64,000 nt of DNA. It comes from Alicyclobacillus kakegawensis NBRC 103104. GTDB lineage: Bacteria; Bacillota; Bacilli; Alicyclobacillales; Alicyclobacillaceae. The stretch lies in the NCBI RefSeq assembly GCF_001552655.1, contig NZ_BCRP01000008.1, positions 62,001 to 126,000 of the forward strand, read 5' to 3'. Positions 46,169 to 60,940 of the stretch are shown here, piece by piece. The notes under the pieces were generated by a model. The model made no database searches. It was not told where the DNA came from and worked only from the letters and a program-made list of their open reading frames with translations. Within the stretch, counting starts at the first letter, position 1. Every line of letters starts with the position of its first letter. The translations under genes were made by a program, and so were the position numbers.

Positions 46169-46212
46169 TTGACAGACGCCCCATATAGATTATAATCAAG
46201 ATTGTTAACAAT
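46169..46212 (+). promoter_or_regulatory. Consensus sigma-A promoter with palindromic operator at the start site
   Basis: TTGACA (46169-46174), 16 bases and TATAAT (46191-46196) are a perfect -35/-10 pair. A 12-bp perfect palindrome ATTGTTAACAAT (46201-46212) lies at the expected transcription start, so a bound protein would block initiation. The transcript would have a leader of about 215 bases before the RidA ATG at 46422. The palindrome fits the TTGT-N-ACAA pattern of GntR/FCD regulators such as the one encoded at 58627. Confidence 0.75.
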
Positions 46213-46421
46213 TTTGATTTGAGCCCAATGCAACGTCTTGGGAAAACTCGTTGGCGCTCTTGTAATCGCTATCATAGGATCTGAGAGTCGTTGCTTCAAT
46301 CAACCAAGTTTCTACCTTGCGAGAAAGGGGGGCGTGGATGGAACGAAGACGTTGAACAGGGCTGTACGGAGTAGCCAACGAAGGAAAGGACATCTTGATT
46401 TCCGTGGGAGGCGAGGGGACG

Positions 46422-46820
46422 ATGGGTCGTCGACAGAGTATAGAAATTCCAGGCGTGAATCATGGGAGTACACCGATTCCCCAGGGCGCTAAGCTCGACG
46501 GAATCGTCTTTTCGTCAGCGATTTCAGGAGCTGACCCCGAAACCGGGAAAATTCCGGAAGATCCTGAAAGACAGGTTCAACTCGCGTTTGCGAACGTGCG
46601 ACGGTTTATGGAGATTTGCGGTGGGACCACAGAGGACATCGGGCGCGTCACCGTATATCTGGCAGAGGAACGTTATCGTGACTTGGTGAACGTGGAGTGG
46701 GTCAAGATGTTCCCAGATGCCAGCAACCGGCCAGCGCGTCATTCCATTGTGAGTCAGCTGCGGGGTGGCGCGGTAGTACAATTGGAACTTATAGCCGTCT
46801 TGAATTCAGATGAGCGGTAA
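46422..46820 (+). CDS. RidA/YjgF family protein
   Basis: A 132-residue protein of the Rid family with GAKLDGIVFSSAISGADPETG, FANVRRFMEICGGTTEDIGRVTVYL and RHSIVSQLRGGAVVQLELIAV. Classic RidA proteins hydrolyse 2-aminoacrylate; a subset in aromatic clusters are 2-aminomuconate deaminases. The conserved Arg of RidA (in PARHSIV here) is present. ATG 46422 is chosen for GGGAGGCGAGGGG. It opens the aromatic operon and lies 38 bp before the LigB-like gene, so deamination of an amino-muconate or cleanup of a reactive enamine are both possible. Confidence 0.83.
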   Translation: MGRRQSIEIPGVNHGSTPIPQGAKLDGIVFSSAISGADPETGKIPEDPERQVQLAFANVRRFMEICGGTTEDIGRVTVYLAEERYRDLVNVEWVKMFPDASNRPARHSIVSQLRGGAVVQLELIAVLNSDER

Positions 46821-46858
46821 CTTTTGGAGGAAAAAGAATCAGGAAGGTTGATTCCTAT

Positions 46859-47821
46859 ATGGCAGAGATTGTGCTTGGGATTGGTTCGTCCCATAGTCCA
46901 CAGGTCAGCAGCCCGTCGGACATATGGCCATTGCACGTTGAGCGGGACAAGATCTATCTGGGTCCGGAATTCCAAGAGCGGGAACGAGAAATCGCGTCCA
47001 CCATCCAAGATCAGCTGAAGCCGGAGGTATGGCAAAGGAAGTATGAAGCCTGTCAGGCGGCCATCGCCCGTCTTAACGATGCCATTGCGGAAGCCAATCC
47101 AGACATATTGGTGGTCGTCGGCGATGATCAGGAGGAGTTATTCTGGGACGACTCAAAACCGGCATTTGCGCTGTTTTGGGGAACAGAATTGAAAGATTTG
47201 CCGCACCCCTTGGAAGAATTGCATCCATCGCTCAGACCCGTGATTTGGGCTTGGCATACGACAGATGAAATCGACTATTACCCGGTTCAGGATGACCTGG
47301 CCAAGTACATCATCTCCGAGATGATGTGGGAAGGGTTTGATGTGTCCCAAAGCAAGACGCAGCATGAAGGTCGATCCTTGGGCCACGCCTTCACGTTTGT
47401 CAAGAGGCGCCTTATGCCCAAAAAGGATATCCCTATGGTGCCCGTCTTTGTCAACTGTTTCTTCCAACCCAACCAGCCCACGCCGGCTCGGTGTTACGAA
47501 TTCGGCCAGGCCTTGCGCAGAGTGATTGAATCCTGGCAATCGGATAAACGAGTGGCCATCATTGGGTCCGGCGGGTTGAGCCACTTCAAGGTCGATGAGC
47601 GATTGGATGAGCTTGTGATTCGGGGGCTCAAGAACAAGGACCCGGATATCTTAAAGTCGATTCCTCGAGACAAGTTGGAGGGCGCGTCCGGTGAAATTCT
47701 GAATTGGATTGTGGCCGCCGGTGCCTTGGAACACTTGAACATTGATTACTTGGAATACGTGTCTGGATACCGTTCGCCTGCGGGAACTGGTGTTGGCATG
47801 ACCTTTGCCATATGGAGATAA
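46859..47821 (+). CDS. LigB-like (class III extradiol) dioxygenase family protein
   Basis: A 320-residue protein with the LigB fold: IGSSHSPQ with His12 as the first metal ligand and GSGGLSHFKVDERLDELVI with the His used as the catalytic base. In LigB and gallate dioxygenases the second metal His lies in a NDH motif; the matching place here reads GDDQEE (88-93). One ligand therefore seems changed to Gln, although this may be a feature of a subfamily. Substrates of the family include protocatechuate, gallate, 2-aminophenol and homoprotocatechuate. The flanking RidA, hydrolase, GalB and GalC-type genes argue for a ring-cleavage role. There is no separate small alpha subunit nearby. Confidence 0.8.
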   Translation: MAEIVLGIGSSHSPQVSSPSDIWPLHVERDKIYLGPEFQEREREIASTIQDQLKPEVWQRKYEACQAAIARLNDAIAEANPDILVVVGDDQEELFWDDSKPAFALFWGTELKDLPHPLEELHPSLRPVIWAWHTTDEIDYYPVQDDLAKYIISEMMWEGFDVSQSKTQHEGRSLGHAFTFVKRRLMPKKDIPMVPVFVNCFFQPNQPTPARCYEFGQALRRVIESWQSDKRVAIIGSGGLSHFKVDERLDELVIRGLKNKDPDILKSIPRDKLEGASGEILNWIVAAGALEHLNIDYLEYVSGYRSPAGTGVGMTFAIWR

Positions 47822-47870
47822 CCGCTTGGCATTACATCATGTGCACAGCGGAGTGTGGGAGGCAGCCTGC

Positions 47871-48701
47871 GTGAGTGCAGTCGATGTGGAGGAGCGAACC
47901 GTAAGACTGAGCCATGGGCACACGCATTATCTGGAGGCGGGTGACGGAGCGCCGGTCATTCTACTCCATGGGGTTGGATTTTGGCAAGGCGGCGATTATT
48001 GGCTGCCGAACATCCGCTGCCTGGGGACCAAGTACCGGGTCTATGCTCCAGACTTCGTCGGATGGGGCGACGGGGACAGGTTGGACATTGAGTATTCATT
48101 TGCATACCTGGTCGATTTTGTCCGAGAATTCCAAGATGCATTGGGGCTCTCATCCGCCCACATCGTCGGGCACTCCATGGGCGGGTGGGTCGCGGCGCTC
48201 TTGGCCTACGAAAGCCCCAATCGCGTTCGTACACTGACGTTGGTGGACAGTGGAGGCATGGCGGAGCGCACGCTCTCGACCATGACTGCGTTCAGACCGC
48301 CCGAGTTTGAGGATATTTTCAATCACGTGTTGAAAACGACGACCTTGCGGGGCTCCGATGCCAGAAATCTGGCGCAGCGTTGGTACGACAGGACTCACTT
48401 GCCAGGGGCGTTGGAGGCTTATCAAAAGATATTAAATCACATGAATCACCCCACGAATCGGGCGCGATACGGACTTCGTCGCCGCTTGCCGCACATCGGG
48501 TGCCCGGCTCTCATTGTCTGGGGAGCGGATGATGACATCAATGATCTGGAGTTGGGGAAAGATCTGCATTCACTGCTTTCCCATTCAGAATTCACCATAT
48601 TGCCGGGTGGGCATTTCATCCCGAGTGAGACCCCGGACGAATTTAATCGGCGTGTCATGGAGTTCTTAGACAAGCATGCGGCTGAGGGCAGAAGCGCCTA
48701 A
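47871..48701 (+). CDS. Alpha/beta hydrolase, meta-cleavage product hydrolase-like
   Basis: A 276-residue alpha/beta hydrolase. The oxyanion region is LLHGVGFWQGG, the nucleophile Ser102 is in VGHSMGGW, Asp lies in WGADDD, and the His is in LPGGHFIP. It resembles MhpC/XylF-type hydrolases that split the C-C bond of ring-cleavage products. GTG 47871 is selected because GTGGGAGG stands upstream and the family N-terminus begins there; this leaves 49 bp after the dioxygenase gene. Its position between the ring-cleavage and hydratase genes supports a role in the same pathway, although protocatechuate-type routes do not strictly need such a hydrolase. Confidence 0.82.
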   Translation: MSAVDVEERTVRLSHGHTHYLEAGDGAPVILLHGVGFWQGGDYWLPNIRCLGTKYRVYAPDFVGWGDGDRLDIEYSFAYLVDFVREFQDALGLSSAHIVGHSMGGWVAALLAYESPNRVRTLTLVDSGGMAERTLSTMTAFRPPEFEDIFNHVLKTTTLRGSDARNLAQRWYDRTHLPGALEAYQKILNHMNHPTNRARYGLRRRLPHIGCPALIVWGADDDINDLELGKDLHSLLSHSEFTILPGGHFIPSETPDEFNRRVMEFLDKHAAEGRSA

Positions 48702-48722
48702 CGGGAAAATTTTGTCGGTTGG

Positions 48723-48732
48723 CTGTATACAA
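48723..48732 (+). promoter_or_regulatory. Possible FCD-regulator half-palindrome before the GalB-like gene
   Basis: CTGTATACAA differs by one base from TTGTATACAA, a common operator of GntR/FCD regulators. It lies 29 bp before the ATG at 48761 in a 59-bp gap. A single short site could be chance. Confidence 0.3.
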
Positions 48733-48760
48733 TTCGCATCATTGAGGAGAGATACGCACA

Positions 48761-49480
48761 ATGTCGCAAGCGAAGGAGACCATCACTGTCGTCAGTGCTC
48801 ACTCAGCGGATTTCGTATGGCGCGCCGGTGGGGCCATTGCACTCTACCACGATAGGGGCTATCAGGTGCGTGTCCTGTGTTTGTCTTTTGGCGAACGAGG
48901 GGAGTCGGCCCGCCTTTGGAAACTGGGAAAATCATTGGAAGAGATTAAGGCTATCCGCAGACGCGAGGCTGAACGAGCGGCGGAAATCCTTGGAGCGGAC
49001 ATTCGCTTCTTTGACGCGGGCGACTACCCGCTGGATGTGACGAATGAACTTCGCGATGCCATTGTTCAAGAATTTCGGGAACACCGTCCAAAATTCATAC
49101 TCACCCATTCCTTGCAGGACCCCTACAATGTCGATCACGTTCGCACCACGCAACTCGTTCTGGAAAGCCGCATACTTGCCCAAGCGCACGGATACCCGTC
49201 GGAATTCGGCGTCATTGGTGCTCCGCCAGTCTTTTTGTATGAGCCTCATCAAACGGAGCAGTGCAACTTCAGGGTGGATGTCCTGCTGGACATTACTTCT
49301 GTCTTTGAGCGCAAACGGAAGGCCATGGAATGTATGGAGGCCCAGGAGCACCTGTGGGAGTACTATACGGACGTGGCGAAACGCCGGGGTGTACAGGCGG
49401 GGCGCAACTCCGGAGGCACAATCAAGTACGGGGAGGCTTACCAGCGGGTATATCCGTACGTGGGAGGCGAGTTTGTGTGA
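48761..49480 (+). CDS. 4-oxalomesaconate hydratase-like PIG-L deacetylase family protein (GalB type)
   Basis: A 239-residue zinc enzyme of the PIG-L fold. The usual AHPDD motif is replaced by SAHSADFVWRAGGAIA, the form I associate with GalB of the Pseudomonas gallate pathway. RFFDAGDYPL and PYNVDHVRTTQL supply the other conserved Asp/His residues. GalB adds water to 4-oxalomesaconate, giving 4-carboxy-4-hydroxy-2-oxoadipate. The next gene, overlapping by four bases, encodes the aldolase that splits that product. Together they are strong evidence for a gallate or protocatechuate 4,5-cleavage route. ATG 48761 has TTGAGGAGAG upstream. Confidence 0.82.
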   Translation: MSQAKETITVVSAHSADFVWRAGGAIALYHDRGYQVRVLCLSFGERGESARLWKLGKSLEEIKAIRRREAERAAEILGADIRFFDAGDYPLDVTNELRDAIVQEFREHRPKFILTHSLQDPYNVDHVRTTQLVLESRILAQAHGYPSEFGVIGAPPVFLYEPHQTEQCNFRVDVLLDITSVFERKRKAMECMEAQEHLWEYYTDVAKRRGVQAGRNSGGTIKYGEAYQRVYPYVGGEFV

Positions 49481-50154
49481 GCCACCAAATTGTGCGGAAC
49501 ATCGAACGCGCGGACCCCAAAGCGATGCAGGCCCTGAAGGAATTTGGCACCGCCACGCTGCATGAAGCCATGGGACGAAGCGGACTCATGAAACCTTATC
49601 TGCGTCCCATTTACGATACGGCGCGGGTTTGTGGAACCGCGGTCACCGTCTCCTGTCACCCGGGAGACAACCTGATGATACACGCGGCGATTGAGGTATG
49701 CCGGCCTGGGGATGTGCTCGTGGTCACAGTGACTTCAGATTCCACAGACGGCATGTTCGGTGAATTGCTGGCTGTGTCGGCCCGAGCCCATGGGGTTCAG
49801 GGACTTGTGATTGAAGCCGGTGTACGCGACACCGCCGAATTGACCGAGATGCAATTTCCGGTCTGGGCAAGAGCCGTTTCAGCGCAAGGGACCGTAAAAT
49901 CAAGTCCCGGATCTGTGAATGTTCCCGTTGTTTGCGCCGGAGTGATTGTGCACCCAGGAGATGGCATCGTGGGTGACAGGGATGGTGTGGTTGTCGTGCC
50001 CAAGCAACAGGTTAGCGATGTGATTCGGGCGGCAGACGCCCGCAGACGTCGCGAGGACCAGACTCGGAGGCGGTTGGCTCAGGGGGAACTGGGATTGGAT
50101 ATCTATGGACTACGAGAAAAGCTGAACTCGTTGGGAGTCCGATACCAAGACTGA
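49477..50154 (+). CDS. 4-carboxy-4-hydroxy-2-oxoadipate aldolase-like RraA-fold protein (GalC/LigK type)
   Basis: A 225-residue RraA/HMG-CHA aldolase fold protein. The catalytic loop is VIEAGVRDTAELTEM with the Arg and Asp that bind pyruvate and metal, and the C-terminal DGIVGDRDGVVVVP is diagnostic. It would cleave 4-carboxy-4-hydroxy-2-oxoadipate to pyruvate and oxaloacetate, or HMG to two pyruvates. GTG 49477 overlaps the preceding stop by GTGA, so translation is coupled. This is the last gene of the operon that begins at 46422. The products enter central metabolism, and PPDK is encoded just upstream on the other strand. Confidence 0.87.
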   Translation: MSHQIVRNIERADPKAMQALKEFGTATLHEAMGRSGLMKPYLRPIYDTARVCGTAVTVSCHPGDNLMIHAAIEVCRPGDVLVVTVTSDSTDGMFGELLAVSARAHGVQGLVIEAGVRDTAELTEMQFPVWARAVSAQGTVKSSPGSVNVPVVCAGVIVHPGDGIVGDRDGVVVVPKQQVSDVIRAADARRRREDQTRRRLAQGELGLDIYGLREKLNSLGVRYQD

Positions 50155-50390: not shown

Positions 50391-50571
50391 TGCCGGGCTT
50401 GTGAAGCCGTGGTTTCCTGGCAGTCTTTGAAAGCGCTATCTAGAGCTTGGTGCTGGTCTCTCTTTCGGAATTATGGGTCATGGTCGTACTTCTAGACTAG
50501 TGAGAACAGCCCCCTGCCGACCCTTGGTTGGACAGGAGTTCCAGCAGAACAACCTTCACGGAGGGATGGCC

Positions 50572-51831
50572 ATGCAACAAAGGTCTCGTTTGTGGACATA
50601 CGAAAACGCCATCATTGTAATGATGTTCTTTGCGTTCGGATTGGTGTTCATGGATCGACAGAGCATCACGTATTTGTCTCCATTTTTGATTCCAGATTTA
50701 CACCTGAACAACGCGCAAGTGGGAATGTTCGCATCTGCGCTGTCCGTTGGCTGGGGCATATCCGCTTGGGCCGTGGCCAGTTTCTCGGATTTTTCCGGAA
50801 ACAGAAAGAGAATCTTGATCTTTTTCATCGTGTTGTTCGCCATCGCCTCGGTCCTTTCGGGTGTGGTCGGTTCTTTCCTGGCCATGTTTCTGGTGCGCGG
50901 ATTGATGGGGCTGTCTGAAGGACCGGTGTTTCCCATAGCAGCGGTGGCCGTGAAATCGGCTTCACAACCGGGGCGTCAAGGATTCAACATCGGGTTCACC
51001 CAGAGCGCCTCAGGGCTGATTGGCATGACGATTGCACCCTTGGTTGTTGTCGCGTTAGCCAACGCCTTTGGCTGGCGGTATGCATTCTACTTATTGGGAG
51101 TTCCAGCGCTCGTGCTCGCCATCATTGTCGCAAAGTTTATGCGGGAACCCCAGCTGAGCCCCCAGGAAGGCGCCTCGGAGAGAAAACTGACCTGGGCGGA
51201 CTATAAGGTGATCTTCCAAACCCGAAACACCTGGCTGTGCGTCATATGTTCCATAGGGTTCATCACCTGGCTCATCACGTTCACGACGTTTGCGCCCATA
51301 TTGATGACGGAGGTAGACAAAATCACAGCGACCCAGATGAGCTGGGCCATGAGCGCCTTTGGCTTCGGGTCCTGGGTTTGGGGCTTCTGTGTTCCTTTAA
51401 TTTCTGATTTTCTCGGCAGGAAGCCTTCCATGATTGCGTCAGGCCTGATAGCGACCTTGGCCCCTCTGGCATTGCTGGTGATTCATTCCGGCGTTGGCGT
51501 CTTGATTGTGGTGTTGTTCGTGTTGGCCATCGGCCAAGGTTACGCCGCTGTATGCATGTCGGTCATACCCAGTGAGTCCGTGCCGCCGGCGTTCTCGGCT
51601 TCCGCCATTTCCATCATGATGATGATTGGAGAGATCTTTGGGGGAACCACCGTGCCGACTCTGGCCGGTATAGCCGCTGACCACTACGGTTTGTCCGCGC
51701 CCATGTTCATTGCGGCACTCGGCTCTTTCGTGGTCTTCGTGGTTTCCTTCTGGCTGCGGGAAACGGCTCCAAGAAAGGTGGGCCTCATCAAACCGGAGAC
51801 GACGCAGGTTGCTGGCCAGTACACATCTTGA
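50572..51831 (+). CDS. MFS transporter, probable aromatic acid permease (paralog A)
   Basis: A 419-residue protein with about 12 helices. YENAIIVMMFFAFGLVFMDRQSITYLSPF is the first helix (keys YENA, FGLVFMDR). Then come LMGLSEGPVFPIAAVAV, RQGFNIGFTQSASGLIG and AADHYGLSAPMF near the end. It is clearly a paralog of the protein at 59666 and of the truncated one at 63574. ATG 50572 is used, since CGGAGGG lies seven bases upstream; longer frames to 50473 carry no site. It lies in the aromatic region and probably imports an aromatic carboxylate. Its upstream element is shared with paralog B. Confidence 0.85.
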   Translation: MQQRSRLWTYENAIIVMMFFAFGLVFMDRQSITYLSPFLIPDLHLNNAQVGMFASALSVGWGISAWAVASFSDFSGNRKRILIFFIVLFAIASVLSGVVGSFLAMFLVRGLMGLSEGPVFPIAAVAVKSASQPGRQGFNIGFTQSASGLIGMTIAPLVVVALANAFGWRYAFYLLGVPALVLAIIVAKFMREPQLSPQEGASERKLTWADYKVIFQTRNTWLCVICSIGFITWLITFTTFAPILMTEVDKITATQMSWAMSAFGFGSWVWGFCVPLISDFLGRKPSMIASGLIATLAPLALLVIHSGVGVLIVVLFVLAIGQGYAAVCMSVIPSESVPPAFSASAISIMMMIGEIFGGTTVPTLAGIAADHYGLSAPMFIAALGSFVVFVVSFWLRETAPRKVGLIKPETTQVAGQYTS

Positions 51832-51970
51832 TCTCCGGGGCGTGCGGGCGCTTCGGCTGCAACTACGAAGAGGAACAGTTGGCTTGACTTGATGGGATTG
51901 TTTCGACACCTGTGGTCTATGGGTTCGTGTTGAGGATGGAGTTCGTGGCATGGAAGGAGGATTCTTTACC

Positions 51971-53308
51971 ATGGCATATACGACTGTCGACGCAACGGCA
52001 CTGAAGGACATTAAGGAGAAAATCCACACGGGCGTTTTGCCGCAGTGGGTATTCTCCAATCAGCAGATCTATGAACTGGAGCTGGAGAAGATCTACGCCA
52101 GAACATGGAATTTCATTGGACATGAATCCGAGATCCGCAATCCGGGAGACTTTGTCACACGCTGGATAGTCCACGATCCCGTTCTTCTGTTGCGGGACCA
52201 GGATGGTCAGATCCGAGCGTATCTGAATTCCTGTACACACCGCGGCGCTCAATTGTGTGTTGCGGATTGCGGCAACAAGAAAACGTTCACGTGTCCCTAT
52301 CATGGCTGGACTTTCAACCAAAGAGGGGAATTGATTGGCATTATTGCCGGCAACAAAGTGTACGGGGAGGAACTGGATCGCAGCCAGTGGGCGCTGCGAA
52401 GGATACCTCGAGTGGAGACGTATCAGGGCATGATTTTTGCGTCGCTCAATCCTGACGTGGAACCGCTCGACGAGTTTTTGGGAGGAATGAAATGGTATTT
52501 CGACATTATGCTTGGACGTACCACAAATGGGCTGGAAGTCCGGGGAGTTCCACACCGCTGGCTGATTCGGACCAACTGGAAAATTAGCGCTGACAACTTT
52601 GGCGGCGATCCGTACCATGTCGCGATGAGCCACCGCTCTACTGTCGAACTCGGCATCAGCCCTCAGGATCCCATGTATGCCAGCTACGGATACCAAATCG
52701 TATTGGAAAATGGACACGGCATCAACATCTGTACGACCAAAGACGGCACCACAAGCCGCCCCTATCAGGGACTGCCCGAAGAACTGTGGCCGGAATTCGA
52801 GAAGAACCTGACTGCCGAACAACGAGACATCCTGTATCGTGCCGTTGTGTTCGTGGGAAATTGTTTCCCCAACTTGTCCTTTGTCAGCCCTATGCATGGG
52901 ACAGGAGGCCCTGACGAACCGTTGACCAGCTTCGTCAATTTCCGAACCTGGCGGCCCTTGGCTCCCGATCTCATTGAAGTGTGTTCATGGTGCATGGTGG
53001 ATAAGGACGCGTCGGAGGAGTTCAAAGAGGCCTCATACAGGAGCTATGTGGGTTCCTTTGGTCCGGGAGGAACCCTTGAGCAGGACGATGGGGAAATTTG
53101 GACGCGTGTGGAAGATGCCAGCAAGGGGTTCATGGTTCAAAGCAAGGACGTTCACTACAACAATGTACTCAACTACCTCATGGGCATGGGGAGAGTAGAG
53201 CCGATCGAACAATGGCGTGCACCGGGTACAGCGTATCCCACATGTTGGCTGGACGCCATTTCTCGCTCCTTCTACGAGCACTGGGTGGACCAATTGCTGA
53301 GCGAATGA
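51971..53308 (+). CDS. Rieske-type aromatic ring-hydroxylating dioxygenase, large subunit
   Basis: A 445-residue alpha subunit of the naphthalene/benzoate-dioxygenase class. The Rieske ligands are Cys88, His90 (SCTHRGAQL), Cys108 and His111 (CPYHGWTF). The mononuclear iron site is Asp213, His216 and His221 in NFGGDPYHVAMSH. ATG 51971 follows AAGGAGGA. It is followed 34 bp later by its beta subunit. The enzyme dihydroxylates an aromatic ring with dioxygen and two electrons, but no ferredoxin or reductase gene lies in the window, so electron donors must be encoded elsewhere. With the formaldehyde dehydrogenase downstream, an O-demethylating hydroxylation is also possible. Confidence 0.92.
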   Translation: MAYTTVDATALKDIKEKIHTGVLPQWVFSNQQIYELELEKIYARTWNFIGHESEIRNPGDFVTRWIVHDPVLLLRDQDGQIRAYLNSCTHRGAQLCVADCGNKKTFTCPYHGWTFNQRGELIGIIAGNKVYGEELDRSQWALRRIPRVETYQGMIFASLNPDVEPLDEFLGGMKWYFDIMLGRTTNGLEVRGVPHRWLIRTNWKISADNFGGDPYHVAMSHRSTVELGISPQDPMYASYGYQIVLENGHGINICTTKDGTTSRPYQGLPEELWPEFEKNLTAEQRDILYRAVVFVGNCFPNLSFVSPMHGTGGPDEPLTSFVNFRTWRPLAPDLIEVCSWCMVDKDASEEFKEASYRSYVGSFGPGGTLEQDDGEIWTRVEDASKGFMVQSKDVHYNNVLNYLMGMGRVEPIEQWRAPGTAYPTCWLDAISRSFYEHWVDQLLSE

Positions 53309-53342: not shown

Positions 53343-53834
53343 ATGACAATCCGGGATGAAATCGTGAATTTCCTGCATGATGAAGCCTTCTTGCTGGATG
53401 AACGCAGGTTTGACGAGTGGCTGGAGATGCTTGATGACTCGGTCGTGTATCGCATGCCGATGCGCGTGACCAAAGAGAAGGAAGGGGGGGACGACATTGT
53501 CGATGAGATGACTTACCTTGAGGAGACCAAGCAGAGCCTCATCACACGTGTCAATCGGCTGAAGACCACATCCGCATGGGCGGAGGACCCCCCGTCCCGA
53601 ACCCGGCATTTCATCACGAACGTGCGGATCGAGCGCGAGGAACCGGAAGAGGTGCATGTGACCAGCTACTTTCACATGCTTCGCAGTCGCGGCAGCACCA
53701 CGGAAGTGGAGCAGGTATTTGGAAAGCGAAGCGATGTGGTCAAGAAACGAGATGGCAATTGGCGGCTCGTGAGGAGGACCATTTATCCGGACCAGGCCAT
53801 TCTGGGCATGAGAAATATCAGCAACTTCTTTTGA
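53343..53834 (+). CDS. Ring-hydroxylating dioxygenase, small (beta) subunit
   Basis: A 163-residue cone-shaped NTF2-fold beta subunit. Typical segments are FLHDEAFLLDERRFDEWLEMLDDSVVYRMP (keys EAFLLD, WLEML, VVYRMP), SRTRHFITNVRIE and the end WRLVRRTIYPDQ. It has no cofactors and stabilises the alpha3beta3 assembly. ATG 53343 with GGGAGGGGC upstream. It follows the large subunit and precedes the formaldehyde dehydrogenase in the same direction. Confidence 0.9.
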   Translation: MTIRDEIVNFLHDEAFLLDERRFDEWLEMLDDSVVYRMPMRVTKEKEGGDDIVDEMTYLEETKQSLITRVNRLKTTSAWAEDPPSRTRHFITNVRIEREEPEEVHVTSYFHMLRSRGSTTEVEQVFGKRSDVVKKRDGNWRLVRRTIYPDQAILGMRNISNFF

Positions 53835-53906: not shown

Positions 53907-55130
53907 ATGGGCAACCGAGCCGTAGTGTACATGGGACCTGGTCATGTGGAAGTGCAGAATATTGATTATCCGGAACTCGTACTGAAAGACGGCCCTGGAG
54001 TGCATCCGTCGAATGTGGGCAGAAAGTGCGAACACGGCGTCATCATTAAGGTGGTGTCGACCAACATCTGTGGCAGTGATCAGCACATGGTGCGTGGACG
54101 CACCACAGCGCCCGTGGGTCTGGTATTGGGCCATGAGATTACCGGAGAGGTGATAGAGGTCGGACGAGACGTAGAGTTCATCAAAAAGGGCGATTTGGTC
54201 TCGGTGCCCTTTAATATCGCCTGCGGGCGCTGCCGGAATTGTAAGGAGAGAAATACGCACATCTGTTTGAATGTGAATCCCGATCGGCCTGGGGCCGCGT
54301 ACGGGTATGTCGATATGGGCGGTTGGGTCGGTGGGCAAGCGGAATATGTGATGGTTCCTTACGCGGACTTCCAATTATTGAAGTTTCCTGACAAAGATCA
54401 GGCCATGGAGAAGATACTCGATTTAACGATGCTGTCCGACATCTTTCCGACCGGATACCATGGAGCTGTCAGTGCCGGTGTGACCACCGGATCGACGGTG
54501 TACGTGGCCGGGGCCGGACCCGTTGGGCTTGCCGCAGCGCACTCGGCGCAGCTGCTGGGGGCGTCCGTTGTGATTGTCGGGGATTTTAATGAAGAAAGAC
54601 TGGCGCAAGCCAGAAGTTTTGGGTGTGAAACCGTTAACTTGTCCGAACACGATGACGTGGGTGAAATGATCGACGATATCCTGGGTGTGCCTGAGGTGGA
54701 TTGTGCAATCGACTGTGTCGGTTTTGAAGCCCACGGTCATGGCGCCAACCACGAGGAAGCCCCAGCTGCCGTTCTCAACACCATCATGTCCGTGACGAGA
54801 GCCGGTGGAAAATTAGGCATCCCGGGCCTCTATGTGACGGGCGATCCGGGGGCTGTAGACGAAGACGCGAAAATTGGCTCTCTGAAGATCAGGATTGGGC
54901 TCGGTTGGGCGAAGGCACACCATTTTGTCACTGGGCAAACGCCTGTGATGCGCTACCATCGGGAACTCATGATGGCCATACTCAGTGGAAAGGCTCAGAT
55001 TGCGAAAGCGGTGAATGCCACGGTGCTGCCGCTGGAGGAGGCGCCGAGGGGGTACAGAGACTTCGACCGAGGGGCGGCGCGAAAATTTGTCTTAGATCCG
55101 CACGGTCTTCTGAGCAAACATCGTGCGTAG
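53907..55130 (+). CDS. fdhA: Glutathione-independent formaldehyde dehydrogenase
   Basis: A 407-residue zinc-dependent dehydrogenase of the FdhA type of Pseudomonas putida. It starts MGNRAVVYMGPGHVEV, has catalytic zinc residues in NICGSDQHMVRGRT and LGHEITGEV, structural cysteines in CGRCRNCKERNTHIC and the diagnostic ADFQLLKFPDKDQAM. The Rossmann motif is GAGPVG, followed by an enzyme-specific insertion before the C-terminus. It oxidises formaldehyde to formate with NAD and without glutathione. In an aromatic cluster it implies that formaldehyde is released, as in demethylation of methoxy-aromatics. ATG 53907 with GGGGAGTGATG upstream. Confidence 0.9.
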   Translation: MGNRAVVYMGPGHVEVQNIDYPELVLKDGPGVHPSNVGRKCEHGVIIKVVSTNICGSDQHMVRGRTTAPVGLVLGHEITGEVIEVGRDVEFIKKGDLVSVPFNIACGRCRNCKERNTHICLNVNPDRPGAAYGYVDMGGWVGGQAEYVMVPYADFQLLKFPDKDQAMEKILDLTMLSDIFPTGYHGAVSAGVTTGSTVYVAGAGPVGLAAAHSAQLLGASVVIVGDFNEERLAQARSFGCETVNLSEHDDVGEMIDDILGVPEVDCAIDCVGFEAHGHGANHEEAPAAVLNTIMSVTRAGGKLGIPGLYVTGDPGAVDEDAKIGSLKIRIGLGWAKAHHFVTGQTPVMRYHRELMMAILSGKAQIAKAVNATVLPLEEAPRGYRDFDRGAARKFVLDPHGLLSKHRA

Positions 55131-55196: not shown

Positions 55197-56072
55197 ATGC
55201 GTATTGGATTCATTGGTTTTGGCGAGGCTGCGTCATCCATAGCCACCGGTCTTCATGATGAAGGATTGACGGGCATGCTGGCGTTCGATGTAGCGGACAG
55301 CGAAATCCTCCGTGAACGAGCATCGGCCGCCGAGGTTACTCTGACGGAAAGCCTGAAGGACCTGGCGGAATCCAGCGACGTCGTTCTCTCCATGGTGACG
55401 GCCGCTTCCGCCCTGTCGGTGGCTAAGACCGCGGCCGGCTTCATGCGCCCGGGTACCATCTACGCGGATCTGAATTCATGTTCCCCCCGGACAAAACAGG
55501 AAATCTTCAACGTGGTGGCTGAATCGCGCCGGGACGTTGCGTTCGCCGGCGTGGCCGTGATGTCAGCCGTGCCACCCTGGAAGCATCGGGTGCCGATGGT
55601 CGCTGACGGTCCGGGGGCGCCCCGGTTGCAAGCGTCCCTGAAGCCCTATGGCATGCGTATCGATGTTTTGCCAGGGCCAGTGGGAGCCGCAGCTGCGTTG
55701 AAAATGTGTCGGAGTGCCATTTTGAAGGGCATGGAGGCCCTGTTTTTGGAGGCCCTTTTAGCCGCCGAATCCGTGGGGGTTGGCGAGCAGGTGTTGACGT
55801 CGCTCGACGCGTCCTTTCCGGAGAACCGCCTGTCTGAAATCGTGAAATATCTGCTGGGCAGAAACATGGCTCACGGAATCAGACGCGCCGAAGAGATGGC
55901 GGAGGTGGCTGCGACTTTCCGAGAGTTGGGGATTACTCCATTCGCTGCCGGAGGAGCGGCGGACAGATTGGCCTGGGCGGCGCGCGTCTGTCCGGCGCCG
56001 GAGCGGAGCCAGGTCGGATCGTACGAGGAGTGGTTGCGTATACTTCTCAAATCAGGTCAGGAGTCCATGTAA
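55197..56072 (+). CDS. NAD(P)-dependent oxidoreductase, 6PGDH-like with DUF1932 domain
   Basis: A 291-residue protein. The N-terminal beta-hydroxyacid dehydrogenase domain starts MRIGFIGFGEAASSIA. The region around SVSAVPPWKHRVPMVADG-like (AVMSAVPPW, VPMVADGPG) forms the substrate loop, and the C-terminal DUF1932-type helical domain has LKMCRSAILKGMEAL with the conserved Lys. Related proteins occur in aromatic meta-cleavage clusters, where the exact reaction has often not been shown. It may oxidise a hydroxy acid or semialdehyde hydrate. It lies 66 bp after fdhA and 35 bp before the aldehyde dehydrogenase, so one operon is likely. Confidence 0.82.
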   Translation: MRIGFIGFGEAASSIATGLHDEGLTGMLAFDVADSEILRERASAAEVTLTESLKDLAESSDVVLSMVTAASALSVAKTAAGFMRPGTIYADLNSCSPRTKQEIFNVVAESRRDVAFAGVAVMSAVPPWKHRVPMVADGPGAPRLQASLKPYGMRIDVLPGPVGAAAALKMCRSAILKGMEALFLEALLAAESVGVGEQVLTSLDASFPENRLSEIVKYLLGRNMAHGIRRAEEMAEVAATFRELGITPFAAGGAADRLAWAARVCPAPERSQVGSYEEWLRILLKSGQESM

Positions 56073-56107
56073 TCAGATGCATACGACAAGAGAGGAGTAT
56101 GATTCTG

Positions 56108-57589
56108 ATGGAAGCTACTGAAACCGTTGTGGTAAGCGCAATCATCAATGGGGAACAGGTGTCCACAGAGAATCAATACCCGCGGGAGAATCCTGCGAAT
56201 CCAGACGAAATCGTTGGCTATGGCCCCATGAACACTCGGGAAGACGCCGTTCGGGCTATTGAGGCGGCAGCTGCCGCTTTTCCAGCGTGGTCGCAAACAC
56301 CTGTGCAGGAGCGCATCCGGAGAATGCAGCGGGCGATTGAGGGGCTCAAGGCGGCATCCGACAGGCTCATACCCTTGCTGTGCCGCGAGCACGGCAAGCC
56401 CTTGTACGACGCTGGCGGCGAAATGTTCGTCACAACCATGTGGATGGAGCATGCCTGCTCCATAGCTGAGGAAGCTCTTCGAGAGCAGGTATCCGTTCAT
56501 GAAGCGGGAAAGACCATCATTACACGTGATCCTATCGGGGTGATTTCCGCCATATTTCCATGGAACTACCCACTCGCCCTTTCTACCATAAAAATTGCAC
56601 CTGCCCTCTTGGCTGGCAACACCATCGTTTTGAAGCCGAGTCCCTACGCACCGCTGGCGGTGAGTCAGGCGATTGAGATCATCGCGAACGAGTTCCCTCC
56701 AGGTGTGGTCAACATGGTGCACGGCGGGGCGGACGTGGGAGTGGAGTTGACCACAAATCCATTGGTCTCCAAGGTCGCCTTTACAGGCGGCACCGTGACC
56801 GGTCGTAGCATCATGAAATCGGCTGCCGATACGCTCAAAAATGTCACCTTGGAGTTGGGCGGCAACGACGCGGCCGTCATTCTTCCGGAGTTCAATGTCG
56901 ACGATGAGCGCGCCATGCGTCGTTTGGTCATATCGAATTTCCTGACCGCTGGTCAGATTTGTATGATTGCGAAGAGAATCTATGTCCACCGCTCCATCCA
57001 TGAGAAGTTTATTGATAGATACGTTCAGGCGGCAAACAAGTGGATTCGCGTCGGAAATCCGTTCAATCCAGATGTAACCATTGGGCCCGTGAACAACAAG
57101 CGACAACTGGAATATGTCCAAAGTCTGATTCGGGGCGCCGAGAGTCACGGTGCCAAGGTGATTCCACTTGGACGGATATTGGATCCTGACCTTTTTGAAC
57201 GAGGCTACTTCATGCAACCCACGCTCGTCCTGCCTGTCGACTACGACGATCCGATTGTGGTCGAGGAGCAGTTTGGTCCCACCGTGCCGGTGTTGCCGTA
57301 CGACGACGAGGAACAGGTGATCTCCCTGGTGAACAACAGCATTTATGGACTGACGAGTTCTGTGTGGGGCGATGAAGAACACGCCCTTCAGGTTGCGCGC
57401 CGCATTCAGGCGGGCACCACGATGATTAACACGGCGGCTGTTCAGGGACTGGATGTACGCTTTCCTTTTGGCGGAGTCAAACAGTCAGGCATTGGCCGGG
57501 AGTATGGGGTAGAGGGATTGACAGCCTATACGGAACTGCACGTCATCAATATTCCTGCCCACGGAGAATTGCCAAATATTCCGGAGTGA
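56108..57589 (+). CDS. NAD(P)-dependent aldehyde dehydrogenase
   Basis: A 493-residue class-I/II type ALDH. FPWNYPLALSTIKIAPALLAGNT (keys PWNYP, GNT) and KPSPYAPL bind nucleotide, Glu249 is in LELGGNDA and the nucleophile Cys285 in TAGQICMIAKR. ATG 56108 is preferred to 56099 because GAGAGGAG then has a normal ten-base spacing. Possible substrates in this setting are an aromatic aldehyde such as vanillin, or a muconate semialdehyde from ring cleavage (for example 2-aminomuconate semialdehyde). It lies 45 bp upstream of the VOC dioxygenase gene. Confidence 0.9.
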   Translation: MEATETVVVSAIINGEQVSTENQYPRENPANPDEIVGYGPMNTREDAVRAIEAAAAAFPAWSQTPVQERIRRMQRAIEGLKAASDRLIPLLCREHGKPLYDAGGEMFVTTMWMEHACSIAEEALREQVSVHEAGKTIITRDPIGVISAIFPWNYPLALSTIKIAPALLAGNTIVLKPSPYAPLAVSQAIEIIANEFPPGVVNMVHGGADVGVELTTNPLVSKVAFTGGTVTGRSIMKSAADTLKNVTLELGGNDAAVILPEFNVDDERAMRRLVISNFLTAGQICMIAKRIYVHRSIHEKFIDRYVQAANKWIRVGNPFNPDVTIGPVNNKRQLEYVQSLIRGAESHGAKVIPLGRILDPDLFERGYFMQPTLVLPVDYDDPIVVEEQFGPTVPVLPYDDEEQVISLVNNSIYGLTSSVWGDEEHALQVARRIQAGTTMINTAAVQGLDVRFPFGGVKQSGIGREYGVEGLTAYTELHVINIPAHGELPNIPE

Positions 57590-57634
57590 TGGGCAAGGTA
57601 AGGATTCGTGGGGATAGAAAAGAGGAGGATACTT

Positions 57635-58588
57635 GTGTTGGAACCGATGTTTGAAATCGCCCATCTCGGTCATGTGGAGCTCCTTACGCCGGTCCTGGAG
57701 AAAAGTGTGTGGTTTTTTCGCGACGTGTTGGGCATGGAAGTGGTCGACGAAGACAACGTGTCCGTCTACATGCGTTGTTGGGGGGACTATGAGCGCTATT
57801 CACTGAAGGTGACGCAGTCACCTCAACCTGGTGTAGGCCATACAGCGCTGCGAACGATGAGTCCAGAGGCACTGGACCGCCGGGTTGAAGCCCTCCAAGC
57901 TCGGGGTGTGGACGGGAAATGGGTGGAAGGAGACCACGGGCACGGTCCCGCCTATCAATTCTTTGGGCCCGACGGCCACCTTATGGAACTGTACTATGAA
58001 ACCACTTACTACCAGCCACCGGCGGAGCTTCGTCCGACACTGAAAAATCAACCTCAGAAGTTTACAGGTCGTGGCGCCTCGGTGAAGACTCTCGACCATG
58101 TGAATTACCTGTCTTCCAATCCGGAAGCAGACGGTCAGATGGTTGAGGACGTGTTGGGCCTGCGGCTGACGGAACAGATTGTTCTGGATAATGGCCGCCA
58201 TGCCGGTCTATGGTACCGTGTCGCCAACAAATCGTATGATCTTGTGTATACCCATGATGAAACCGGTGCCAAGGGCCGGCTGCACCACATCGCGTTTCGT
58301 GTGGACAGCAATGAGTCGATCTGGCGCGCCGCCGACCTGTTTGTCGATCATGATATTTACATTGAGTTTGCACCGAGCAAACACGCTATCAACCAAACCC
58401 ATTTTGTCTATGTGTATGAGCCAGGAGGAAATCGTATCGAGGTGTGCTCCGGCGGGTATCTTGTCCTGGCGCCGGATTGGCAACCGATTACGTGGACAGA
58501 GACCGAACGCAAACGCGGGCAGGCCTGGGGCAATCCGACAGTAGCGAGCTTCCATCGCTACGGTACACCTGTGGTCGAGGGGGTATAA
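57635..58588 (+). CDS. Catechol 2,3-dioxygenase-type (VOC) extradiol dioxygenase
   Basis: A 317-residue two-domain type-I extradiol dioxygenase. The iron ligands of the C-terminal domain are His155 (KTLDHVNYL), His218 (RLHHIAF) and Glu269 (GNRIEVCSGG), with the active-site Tyr in YVYEPGGN and GHLMELYYE closing the N-terminal domain. It cleaves catechols next to the hydroxyls to give a semialdehyde. GTG 57635 has AGAGGAGG six bases upstream. It lies directly after the aldehyde dehydrogenase and 38 bp before the GntR gene. It belongs to a different superfamily from the LigB-like protein, so the region encodes two unrelated extradiol enzymes. Confidence 0.92.
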   Translation: MLEPMFEIAHLGHVELLTPVLEKSVWFFRDVLGMEVVDEDNVSVYMRCWGDYERYSLKVTQSPQPGVGHTALRTMSPEALDRRVEALQARGVDGKWVEGDHGHGPAYQFFGPDGHLMELYYETTYYQPPAELRPTLKNQPQKFTGRGASVKTLDHVNYLSSNPEADGQMVEDVLGLRLTEQIVLDNGRHAGLWYRVANKSYDLVYTHDETGAKGRLHHIAFRVDSNESIWRAADLFVDHDIYIEFAPSKHAINQTHFVYVYEPGGNRIEVCSGGYLVLAPDWQPITWTETERKRGQAWGNPTVASFHRYGTPVVEGV

Positions 58589-58626
58589 TAAAGACATCCA
58601 ATAAGTAGAGGATGGGAAGCTTCGCT

Positions 58627-59286
58627 ATGTCGACCATACCGCAGACAGGTTTATTGACGGAAGAAGAGTGCTATCAGCGTCTCCGCAAGGCAATTGTCGA
58701 GGGGACTCTGATGCCGCATCAGCACTTGGTGGAAATGGATTTGGTGAAGTCCATGAATGCCAGTCGCGCCACGGTTCGGACGGTGTTGGCGAGGCTGGAG
58801 CAGGAGGGCCTGGTGGAACGGGAGCGTTACCGCGGTGCGCGTGTACGCATGGTCACCCAAGCCGAGGCCGCAGAGATTTTGGAAGTCAGGGCGGCGTTGG
58901 AAGCACTCATCGCTCGGCACGCCGCGATGCGCGCCACGGACGCAGATGTCACGGTGCTGAAAGAGATCTTGGAGGACATGCGACGCTGTCAGGAGCGCAA
59001 CGACCTCATCAGCTATTCCGAAGGGAATGCTCGGCTGCATCGCAAGTTGGTGGAGATTGCAGGGCATCAGACGGCAGGACGCTTGTTGGACACGTTAAGT
59101 TCGCAAAGTGTGCGCTATCAATACCGCACCATCATGGCTGAAGGACGCCCGGAGAACTCCCTGCGTGAACACAAGGAGATTGTCGACGCCGTGGCCGCAC
59201 GGAATCCTGATGCGGCCGAAGAGGCGATGAAAATCCACTTGGCCCACGTGTGTGAGACCGTGCGGCAGATGAAGCCAGGTTTGTAG
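58627..59286 (+). CDS. GntR-family transcriptional regulator (FCD subfamily)
   Basis: A 219-residue regulator. The N-terminal winged helix has YQRLRKAIVEGTLMP, LVKSMNASRATVRTVLARLEQEGLVER, and the C-terminal FCD domain carries LEVRAALEALIARHAA, NARLHRKLVEIAGH and EHKEIVDAVAARNPDAAEEAMKIHL, with the His and Asp metal-site pattern of FCD proteins. ATG 58627 is used with a GGGAAG site seven bases upstream. It closes the oxygenase operon and probably controls the region through the ATTGTT-type operators at 46201, 59321 and 61804. Its effector may be an aromatic acid or a ring-cleavage product. Confidence 0.9.
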   Translation: MSTIPQTGLLTEEECYQRLRKAIVEGTLMPHQHLVEMDLVKSMNASRATVRTVLARLEQEGLVERERYRGARVRMVTQAEAAEILEVRAALEALIARHAAMRATDADVTVLKEILEDMRRCQERNDLISYSEGNARLHRKLVEIAGHQTAGRLLDTLSSQSVRYQYRTIMAEGRPENSLREHKEIVDAVAARNPDAAEEAMKIHLAHVCETVRQMKPGL

Positions 59287-59533: not shown

Positions 59534-59665
59534 TACGGAGGATAGTGTGTTGAACAGAGCGGAAAGGAGGTTGGGCCATTCTTGTGAAAGCGATTACTAG
59601 AGAATGGGGCGGTGGGGCTTCGGTGTTCTTCCAGAATAACTCATGAAGAAGGGATGGTGTGCAGT

Positions 59666-60940
59666 ATGGCGAGCGGATCGAAAAAATCGTTTTTTCGATA
59701 TGAAAACGCTGTCGTTCTGATGATGTTTTTTACCTTCGGCTTTGTCTTTATGGAGCGGCTGAGTGTTTCTTTTCTATTTCCGTTCTTTGGTCCCGAATTG
59801 AAAATGAATAATGCAGACCTCGGATTGATGACTTCCATATTGGCGATTTGCTGGTCCCTGTCCGGATTCGTATTTGGTTCCCTGTCAGACTTGATTGGAT
59901 CGCGTAAGAAAGTACTGCTGCCGATTACATTGGCATTCTCAATTTTCTCCTTTTTAACAGGTATCGCAAGGAGCATCGGCTCAATGCTGGTGATTCGCGG
60001 TCTGATGGGTGTATCCGAAGGCCCGGTTCTTCCGATTGCCCAAGCTTCTGTAGTTGCGGACTCACAGCCGCACCGGCGAGGGTTCAACATGGGCTTTGTG
60101 CAAAGTTCTTTGGGTTTGATTGGCTCTGCGGTCGCACCGCTGGTTTTGACCTATGTGGCCACAAAGTATTCATGGCATGCGGGTTTTTACCTGGCCGGTG
60201 TACCGGGATTAATCATGTTCTTTGTTCTGCTCTTTTGGATGAAAGAGCCCAATCGTAGGATGTCGAAAGAACAGTTGGCGAAACATGAACATCGGCTTCG
60301 CCGTGAGGATTACCCGGTTGTCTTCCGCACGAGGAACGTCTGGATTACCATGTTTATTGCTGTATTTATGATGACGTGGCTCTTCGCATTTACCACGTTC
60401 GCACCGACCTTCCTAACTGAACACGACAAATTCTCCGGCACCCAGATGGGCGTTATCACAGCATTTATGGGCCTTGGCACCTTCTTTTGGGGATTCGTTG
60501 GCCCCTGGATCTCTGACAAATGGGGACGTAAGCCGACGCTGATTTTGTTCTCGTTTATCGCAGTGCTTTCACCGGTATGTTTGGCCCTCGTTCACGGGTC
60601 AGTCGCGGTAATGAGCATTATCGGATTTTTGACCTGTGTCGGTCAGGCGTGCTTCCCACTGTTCATGGTTGTTGTTCCGAGCGAATCCCTGTCTCCGAAG
60701 TATGTCGGTACCGCCGTCGGTTTAGTTCAGTTGGTTGGTGAATTGATAGGCGGAACAGCAGTACCGACTATCGGCGGGATTGCGGCAGACCATTATGGAT
60801 TGGTTGCGCCGTTGTGGATTGCGGCTGGCGGCGCGTTTATAAGCGCTTTAATTGCGTTTGCCATCAAGGAGACCGCCCCGGTGAAAAACCGCTGGTCAAA
60901 CCGCAATGTCGGCGAGGGAGTGTCCACGCCGCTTCTGTGA
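59666..60940 (+). CDS. MFS transporter, probable aromatic acid permease (paralog B)
   Basis: A 424-residue protein with about 12 helices. It shares YENAVVLMMFFTFGFVFMERLS, LMGVSEGPVLPIAQAS, RRGFNMGFVQSSLGLIG and AADHYGLVAPLW with the paralog at 50572. ATG 59666 (MASGSKK) aligns with the start of that paralog; ATG 59654 is in frame but too close to AAGAAGGG. It lies between the GntR gene and an isochorismatase-fold gene. It most likely imports a second aromatic carboxylate, or the same one under a different condition. Confidence 0.85.
   Translation: MASGSKKSFFRYENAVVLMMFFTFGFVFMERLSVSFLFPFFGPELKMNNADLGLMTSILAICWSLSGFVFGSLSDLIGSRKKVLLPITLAFSIFSFLTGIARSIGSMLVIRGLMGVSEGPVLPIAQASVVADSQPHRRGFNMGFVQSSLGLIGSAVAPLVLTYVATKYSWHAGFYLAGVPGLIMFFVLLFWMKEPNRRMSKEQLAKHEHRLRREDYPVVFRTRNVWITMFIAVFMMTWLFAFTTFAPTFLTEHDKFSGTQMGVITAFMGLGTFFWGFVGPWISDKWGRKPTLILFSFIAVLSPVCLALVHGSVAVMSIIGFLTCVGQACFPLFMVVVPSESLSPKYVGTAVGLVQLVGELIGGTAVPTIGGIAADHYGLVAPLWIAAGGAFISALIAFAIKETAPVKNRWSNRNVGEGVSTPLL

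Follow-up and report, generated by a model that had tools for sequence, protein, structure and literature searches.

We analyzed a 64,000-nucleotide stretch of the 3.42-Mb genome of Alicyclobacillus kakegawensis NBRC 103104 (G000:C8:62001-126000, hereafter the window), in which five genes run in one direction on the plus strand from position 46422. They encode a RidA/Rid family protein (46422 to 46820; PF01042, 40 bits for a cut-off of 27.3), a LigB-family (class III) extradiol ring-cleavage dioxygenase of 320 amino acids (46859 to 47821; PF02900, 70.9 bits for a cut-off of 26.3), an alpha/beta hydrolase (47871 to 48701), a GalB-type hydratase of the PIG-L fold (48761 to 49480), and a GalC/LigK-type 4-carboxy-4-hydroxy-2-oxoadipate (CHA) aldolase (49477 to 50154; TIGR02798, 315.7 bits for a cut-off of 304.5). 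GalB scored 275.9 bits against the solved 4-oxalomesaconate hydratase 5cgz, with a second-best match of only 51.1 bits, and 4 bases (GTGA) are shared by the reading frames of GalB and GalC. The GTG start of the hydrolase at 47871, which gives 276 amino acids, was chosen from the ribosome-binding site and from the length of orthologs; our queries ran from 47859 and were 4 residues longer.

A reading of this DNA from its letters alone (the sequence-only reading) had recognized RidA, the hydrolase, GalB, and GalC at 46422 to 50154 and had proposed a lower pathway for a carboxylated ring. Family and structure matches bear out all four genes, and the TIGR02798 score and the 5cgz match support both the carboxylated substrate and a lower route through GalB and GalC. 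The LigB-family dioxygenase between RidA and the hydrolase had been overlooked, so that the genes would serve ring cleavage plus a lower pathway and not a lower pathway alone. We propose that this gene set probably serves to open the ring of a methoxylated acid derived from lignin and to channel the products into central metabolism.

Conservation of the gene set and a shared operator-like site

The set extends beyond 50154. On the same strand, GalC is followed by an MFS transporter recognized by a family match (MFS1, 50473 to 51831, with a start at 50473 or 50563), the alpha and beta subunits of a Rieske ring-hydroxylating oxygenase (51965 to 53308 and 53343 to 53834; PF00866, 134.8 bits for the beta subunit), and the glutathione-independent formaldehyde dehydrogenase FdhA (53907 to 55130; TIGR02819, 771.8 bits for a cut-off of 636.95). 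We then looked for these genes in 41 genomes of the Alicyclobacillaceae, which include heat- and acid-tolerant species, and in a wider sample of 299 genomes drawn from the class. LigB (at least 66% identity) was found in 10 of the 41 family genomes, in 11 copies of which one is a fragment, and RidA (at least 60% identity) in 10, with both present in 9. The Rieske alpha subunit (at least 68% identity) occurred in all 10 LigB genomes and in 3 further genomes without LigB. In the class sample, 11 of the 299 genomes gave a LigB match at an E value of 1e-30 or better.

Gene order was conserved in part. In 8 of the 11 LigB copies the gene immediately before LigB is RidA, and in 9 the gene immediately after it is the hydrolase; of the other two, one copy borders a contig end (G033) and one belongs to a decayed locus (G012). 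GalB-GalC directly follows the hydrolase in five of these nine cases (G000, G004, G014, G008, and the first G006 copy) and lies elsewhere in G005, G010, and G007. The second G006 copy consists of RidA-LigB-hydrolase, a LigXa-type Rieske gene, an MFS gene, a second LigXa-type gene, a shortened GalB, and GalC; the Rieske gene that directly follows RidA-LigB-hydrolase in G006 is a relative (78%) of the LigXa-type Rieske gene of the window. Two genomes, G004 and G014, carry the genes as split operons, LigB-hydrolase-GalB-GalC and RidA-MFS1-Rieske alpha/beta-FdhA, 78 to 94 kb apart. FdhA stands directly after the Rieske beta gene in five of the nine examined loci with the close Rieske pair (G000, G004, G007, G008, and G014). 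Since parts of the order recur in relatives and the whole order, from RidA through LigB, hydrolase, GalB, GalC, MFS1, and Rieske alpha/beta to FdhA, recurs in one of them (G008), we consider the arrangement to be more than chance. G178, from another family, carries RidA-Rieske alpha and, separately, GntR-LigB-hydrolase-GalB-GalC-SDR-FdhA, the SDR gene being named by eye. The decayed locus of G012 (L037, 8448 to 9176) retains a LigB fragment and an upstream operator site, with RidA and the hydrolase lost or broken.

This conservation bears on another explanation of the locus, in which protocatechuate or gallate is cleaved in the ordinary way and the hydrolase and RidA are passengers. Both GalB and GalC are of the canonical kind and are shared with galABCD of Pseudomonas putida; with the hydrolase directly behind LigB in so many copies, it is hardly a passenger. 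The window also differs from galABCD in its added hydrolase, Rieske genes, and FdhA, and in the lack of GalD and of a gallate dioxygenase over cut-off (the best of the proteins scanned reached 53.4 of 412 bits). We regard this explanation as improbable.

Upstream of RidA on the plus strand lies a promoter-like site, TTGACA-N16-TATAAT (46169 to 46196), which fits the sigma-70 consensus at 12/12 positions. The end of its -10 box is overlapped by a 26-base palindromic operator-like site, AATCAAGATTGTTAACAATTTTGATT (46194 to 46219), with arms of 13 nucleotides that are 92% complementary and with the core ATTGTTAACAAT. The element ATTGTNNACAAT was found 21 times, in 18 of 40 loci (723,853 bases), for 0.73 occurrences expected from a first-order Markov model; these loci were chosen around the pathway, with own-genome Rieske and amidohydrolase genes added, so that the count is fairly compared with the expectation and with the remaining sequence of these loci. 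Eighteen of the 21 sites lie in the 300 bp ahead of a pathway gene, although such stretches make up only about 7.7% of the sequence, and the genes preceded by a site are those for RidA, LigB, GalB, DUF6282, MFS2, and a catechol 2,3-dioxygenase-like protein (C23O). Both of the split operons carry the operator in G004 and in G014. The remaining three sites stand before the decayed LigB of L037 and in two own-genome loci, L050 and L057. In G178, which is outside the count, the 12-mer operator precedes both operons. ATTGTNNACAAT was absent from four loci with C23O-GalB modules (L080, L081, L082, and L084), and a shorter core, TTGTNNACAA, was found neither upstream of RidA in G033 nor directly upstream of either RidA in G006; one of the G006 copies has it ahead of the GntR gene that precedes RidA. 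We infer that a GntR-family repressor binds ATTGTNNACAAT beside the -10 box. The GntR/FCD regulator encoded at 58612 to 59286 of the window is the candidate, and its relatives (59%) immediately precede RidA-LigB in G006 and LigB in G178.

A candidate route for syringate

The closest known system in working logic is the linear route of Pseudomonas sp. NGC7, which runs from syringate through 3-O-methylgallate (3MGA), CHMOD, carboxy-hydroxymuconate, and oxalomesaconate and is then completed by GalD, GalB, and GalC (PMC12314914, 2025). That article assigns the upper steps to the O-demethylase VanA1B1, the LigAB-like dioxygenase MgaAB, the alpha/beta hydrolase MgaC, and the SnoaL-like isomerase MgaD, the functions of MgaC and MgaD being putative; it also places fdhA2 in the galBCD operon and describes a GntR repressor, VanR2, whose decisive site is directly downstream of the -10 box. 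We give about an even chance to the proposal that the window cluster is a Bacilli counterpart of this linear syringate/3MGA pathway. The gene-by-gene parallel, FdhA behind the Rieske pair in five of nine loci, the operator on both split operons, the gene order in G178, the joint occurrence of LigB, RidA, and the Rieske alpha gene, and the lack of a PF04303 protein speak for it. Syringate was already among the substrates that the sequence-only reading had listed for growth tests.

In such a pathway, the MFS transporter would import a methoxylated aromatic acid, and a Rieske oxygenase, either the alpha/beta pair or the LigXa-type protein, would remove a methyl group with release of formaldehyde, which FdhA would oxidize. 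The LigB-family dioxygenase would open the ring of 3MGA to give the methyl ester CHMOD, from which the hydrolase would form methanol and carboxy-hydroxymuconate. RidA may then isomerize or tautomerize this compound to a form accepted by GalB, in place of MgaD/GalD. Hydration by GalB and cleavage by GalC would finally yield pyruvate and oxaloacetate, and the GntR-family repressor would control the operon from ATTGTNNACAAT.

The two systems share the proposed order of chemistry, an alpha/beta hydrolase, GalB, GalC, and a formaldehyde dehydrogenase with the pathway genes, as well as a GntR-family regulator gene and an operator beside the -10 box (ATTGTNNACAAT in the window and GGGATCCC in NGC7). 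The hydrolase occupies the position expected of MgaC and is likened to it by family and place only. The window differs in its Rieske classes, its single LigB-subfamily protein instead of the two-subunit MgaAB, its RidA instead of MgaD/GalD, and its host. No vanillate-demethylase model appeared among the Pfam and NCBIfam matches of the two window Rieske proteins, which match PF00355/PF00848 and PF00355/PF19301. PF04303, which we take to be the family of GalD, had no match in the A. kakegawensis genome. Among the scanned window proteins, only the Rieske beta subunit showed a SnoaL fold (PF13577, 46 bits, next to its PF00866 score), no genome-wide search for MgaD having been made. As three genes that define the NGC7 type, the VanA1B1-type O-demethylase, the two-subunit LigAB-like dioxygenase, and GalD, were not found, we consider that the cluster shares the working logic of that pathway without belonging to it by homology. 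Homologues of VanA1B1 were the starting point of the NGC7 survey, which names nine classes with Bacilli not among them (PMC12314914); such a survey would have missed the window operon.

Several observations weigh against the syringate-type route. The closest relatives of the Rieske alpha subunit are naphthalene and phthalate dioxygenases and not known O-demethylases, its best solved relative being the naphthalene dioxygenase 2b1x, which we take to be from the genus Rhodococcus. No VanB-type reductase was found among the proteins scanned, and no LigA subunit among the 15 window proteins given to Pfam. FdhA is not beside the Rieske genes in four of the nine close-pair loci (G005, G006, G010, and G012), nor in any of three loci with Rieske alpha genes at 54 to 56% (L032, L033, and L092). 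Within the window the operator stands only before RidA, with none before MFS1, GntR, MFS2, the isochorismatase-fold gene, or the LigXa-type gene. A PF04303 protein is present in 7 of the 24 GalB genomes, on another contig or more than 100 kb from GalB. The isomerase MgaD that RidA would replace is not strictly needed in NGC7 (PMC12314914).

The dioxygenase itself adds to this side. The iron ligands of LigAB are, in what we take to be the usual numbering, His12, His61, and Glu242. In an alignment of the window protein with 17 relatives, the His61 position is occupied by a glutamine (Gln91) in 18/18 sequences, the catalytic His242 and Glu279 are kept in 18/18, and His12 is kept in all but one, which had been shortened at its start for the alignment. 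The set of two histidines and one glutamate is thus incomplete, with His12 and Glu279 retained, and dioxygenase activity itself is not assured. The same change offers a test of how strict the extradiol iron site is. A structural model built from five sequences had a mean pLDDT of 64.5, with values below 50 in the active-site loops (11 to 23, 91 to 100, and 238 to 245), so that the metal site cannot be judged from it and we used it for the fold match alone.

Syringyl lignin acids occur in abundance, and the genes for their degradation that we met in the literature consulted come from sphingomonads and Pseudomonas; a Bacilli version, if true, would add enzymes for lignin use. Our searches of open-licence literature brought up no report of a RidA in a 3MGA or gallate pathway or of a syringate pathway of Alicyclobacillus. 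Syringate is reportedly one of several phenolics on which a Bacillus licheniformis was tested. In favor of our proposal, another study counts genomes of Alicyclobacillus with those that became enriched in lignin-derived 13C (PMC9296663).

Possible roles of the hydrolase and the RidA protein

We propose that the alpha/beta hydrolase acts on the ring-cleavage product. Its nearest solved relatives are the meta-cleavage-product hydrolases 2d0d/1iun (80.6 bits), which cut C-C bonds and not the ester that the syringate-type route would require. The sequence-only reading had called it a C-C hydrolase: the resemblance holds, but the scores do not separate C-C hydrolases from others, since 6i8w (77 bits) and a mono-ethylhexylphthalate hydrolase (74.7 bits) follow closely. 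We therefore abandoned naming the cleaved bond from the PDB matches. A plasmid search with the hydrolase gave only matches below 60% identity, 25 of them listed at about 32%.

The main rival to the syringate-type route arises here, because LigB paralogs are linked to LigY-like proteins. In a route like that of 5,5'-dehydrodivanillate (LigX-LigZ-LigY) in Sphingobium SYK-6, LigB would open a C-substituted protocatechuate-type ring, the hydrolase would cut a C-C bond to give RCOOH and 4-carboxy-2-hydroxypentadienoate, GalB would hydrate the latter, and GalC would split the product into two pyruvates. LigB paralogs at 43 to 52% identity adjoin LigY-like amidohydrolases, which speaks for this rival and against an ester-cleaving route. 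The LigY-like protein beside the G022 paralog scored 383.9 bits to 6e6i versus 229.5 to 4-oxalomesaconate hydratase, and G032 has the same pair, with a LigY-like protein 86% identical to that of G022, followed by a LigXa-type Rieske gene. SYK-6 and the window share a LigXa-type Rieske protein, a ring-cleavage dioxygenase, a hydrolase, and a LigK-type aldolase; the window differs by an alpha/beta hydrolase in place of the amidohydrolase LigY, by the presence of GalB, and by the lack of a visible LigW. In a study of the SYK-6 pathway, the hydration step is listed as not identified and is followed by an aldolase annotated in the RraA family (PMC12673573), so that GalB becomes a candidate for that step. 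Against the rival, the operon holds no LigY-like gene, the genome's own copy being on another contig, and FdhA in the company of GalB/GalC fits methanol or formaldehyde better. We judge the dehydrodivanillate-like route to be unlikely, if the most serious competitor.

The LigY-like amidohydrolase of A. kakegawensis lies far from the window operon (G000:C11:52199-53209; L050, 9200 to 10210), adjoins an MFS gene and CoA-type genes, and is 63% identical to the one beside the LigB paralog of G022 and 64 to 66% identical to those beside the paralogs of G054, G197, and G116. The same locus has a ATTGTTAACAAT site at 19450. A second LigB-family gene is found on another contig of this genome. Six neighboring amidohydrolases were given to NCBIfam, which named none; PDB searches named two.

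We then considered RidA. The arginine and glutamate linked to imine hydrolysis are kept in the window protein (R106 is invariant in 7/7 aligned sequences), and the tyrosine position is occupied by isoleucine, as in 6 of the 7 sequences, the seventh having valine. PMC4433059 gives this pattern, with tyrosine replaced by isoleucine and arginine and glutamate kept, for the subfamily Rid3, of which the window protein is a candidate member; the same article called the in vivo substrates of Rid1 to Rid3 unknown in 2015. The retained pair speaks for the suggestion, made in the sequence-only reading, that an amino-bearing ring such as an amino-hydroxybenzoate is degraded and that RidA deaminates a 2-aminomuconate-type product before GalB and GalC act. 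The 2-aminophenol pathway, with the 2-aminomuconate deaminase AmnE, likewise has a Rid protein beside a dioxygenase of the LigB fold. A fold search with the weak structural model described above (mean pLDDT 64.5) placed LigAB first (E value, 1.1e-9; TM, 0.43 to 0.46) and aminophenol dioxygenases close behind (3.1e-8). By sequence, however, the subfamily differs: the profile search with the window dioxygenase returned only LigB, the gallate dioxygenase DesB, and MhpB, in four distinct sequences, with no 2-aminophenol dioxygenase of the AmnAB type among the matches. The lower part made of GalB/GalC and the hydrolase also set the window apart from that pathway, no aminomuconate deaminase was named among 25 solved Rid relatives of RidA, and RidA is the first gene of Rieske-FdhA operons and accompanies GalB/GalC. 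Its company thus disfavors the amino-aromatic substrate, which we hold to be quite improbable, even with the imine-site residues retained. An isochorismatase-fold protein at 61035 to 61673, between MFS2 and the LigXa-type gene, matches RutB and biuret amidohydrolase weakly, with scores under the cut-off, which would suit such a substrate.

Rid proteins 36 to 46% identical to that of the window lie inside aromatic lower-pathway gene groups on plasmids of Rhodococcus, Bradyrhizobium, Novosphingobium, and Sulfitobacter (L022, 15460 to 15849; L023, 8192 to 8587; L062, 6998 to 7390; L063, 6995 to 7390; and L064, 7001 to 7387). They adjoin amidohydrolase genes and, in four of the five loci, RraA-type genes. 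Plasmid Rid genes of Roseateles and Sulfitobacter adjoin non-LigY amidohydrolases and aldolase/citrate-lyase genes; our guess is that these belong to aminomuconate routes, which would favor the amino-aromatic explanation. Plasmid relatives of LigB (32 to 40% identity) accompany RraA, RidA, and amidohydrolases in Rhodococcus koreensis and Bradyrhizobium sp. CB82, and a PIG-L protein and a CHA aldolase in R. opacus; no RidA was annotated in the stretch read of three other plasmid loci (Polymorphobacter, Aminobacter, and Diaphorobacter).

Another possibility concerns RidA alone and is compatible with any of the routes: it may be a repair enzyme only, which hydrolyzes imines formed from ring-cleavage products and ammonia. 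Rid1 to Rid3 proteins are active on many imines (PMC5619798). At the threshold used, 11 of the 24 GalB genomes have no RidA, which also fits a dispensable helper. Against this role, 9 of the 10 LigB genomes also have RidA. The 24 GalB genomes include 13 with RidA (second-type copies at 43 to 47% counted), 16 with DUF6282, and 6 with both; all except G034, which is 62% complete, have one or the other (23/24; P value of 0.007 if the genomes are independent, a statistic that ignores kinship), suggesting a needed step. Among the 17 genomes without GalB, RidA is found in none and DUF6282 in 5. We consider the repair role tentative, with somewhat less than an even chance.

The same distribution suggests that RidA and DUF6282 exchange at one pathway step, an idea that we keep as such, the clades not being independent; DUF6282 stands before GalB in relatives without RidA. 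In the form most favorable to the syringate-type route, a Rid protein would have become a muconate/oxalomesaconate tautomerase in place of MgaD and GalD, a dioxygenase with a His-Gln-Glu iron site would open the ring, and DUF6282 would be a second, unrelated replacement at that tautomerase step; this combination appears doubtful to us. We know of no Rid protein that acts as a tautomerase, a further point on the opposing side. The syringate-type route would give a Rid protein a role other than deamination, and one that can be tested.

The catechol 2,3-dioxygenase-like module and neighboring genes

Downstream of FdhA, the same strand encodes an NAD-binding/DUF1932 dehydrogenase (55197 to 56072), an aldehyde dehydrogenase (56093 to 57589; none of the 25 NCBIfam models listed was over cut-off), the VOC-type C23O (57641 to 58588; TIGR03211, 328.3 bits for a cut-off of 320.2), the GntR/FCD regulator, the transporter MFS2 (59654 to 60940; family match), the isochorismatase-fold protein, and the LigXa-type Rieske oxygenase (61926 to 63260; PF19301). 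A C23O-GntR-DUF6282-GalB-GalC order is found in many family genomes without LigB, and DUF1932 and pyruvate phosphate dikinase (ppdK) genes lie near GalB/GalC in several relatives. Among the 41 genomes, GalB is present in 20 of the 20 with C23O, and LigB in only 10 of the 24 with GalB. GalB is tied more widely to C23O than to LigB, and GalB/GalC may therefore mainly serve another product, which again counts against the syringate-type route. We would guess that the C23O-GntR-DUF6282-GalB-GalC module is a protocatechuate 4,5-type pathway with unrelated ring-cleavage, dehydrogenase, and pyrone-hydrolase enzymes.

The conserved module is represented in the window at 55197 to 59286 and in L080, L081, L082, L084, L085, and L088. 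Behind the C23O-GntR-GalB-GalC genes of G007 lies a second Rid gene, and no nitrogen-handling gene was seen there, which counts against the amino-aromatic substrate. A ppdK gene, named by eye from its sequence, lies upstream of the window operon on the opposite strand. In total, the A. kakegawensis genome gave 11 matches to the Rieske domain, and a second LigXa-type Rieske gene near a contig end (G000:C6:199818-201155; L053, 7819 to 9156) encodes a protein 81% identical to that encoded at 61926.

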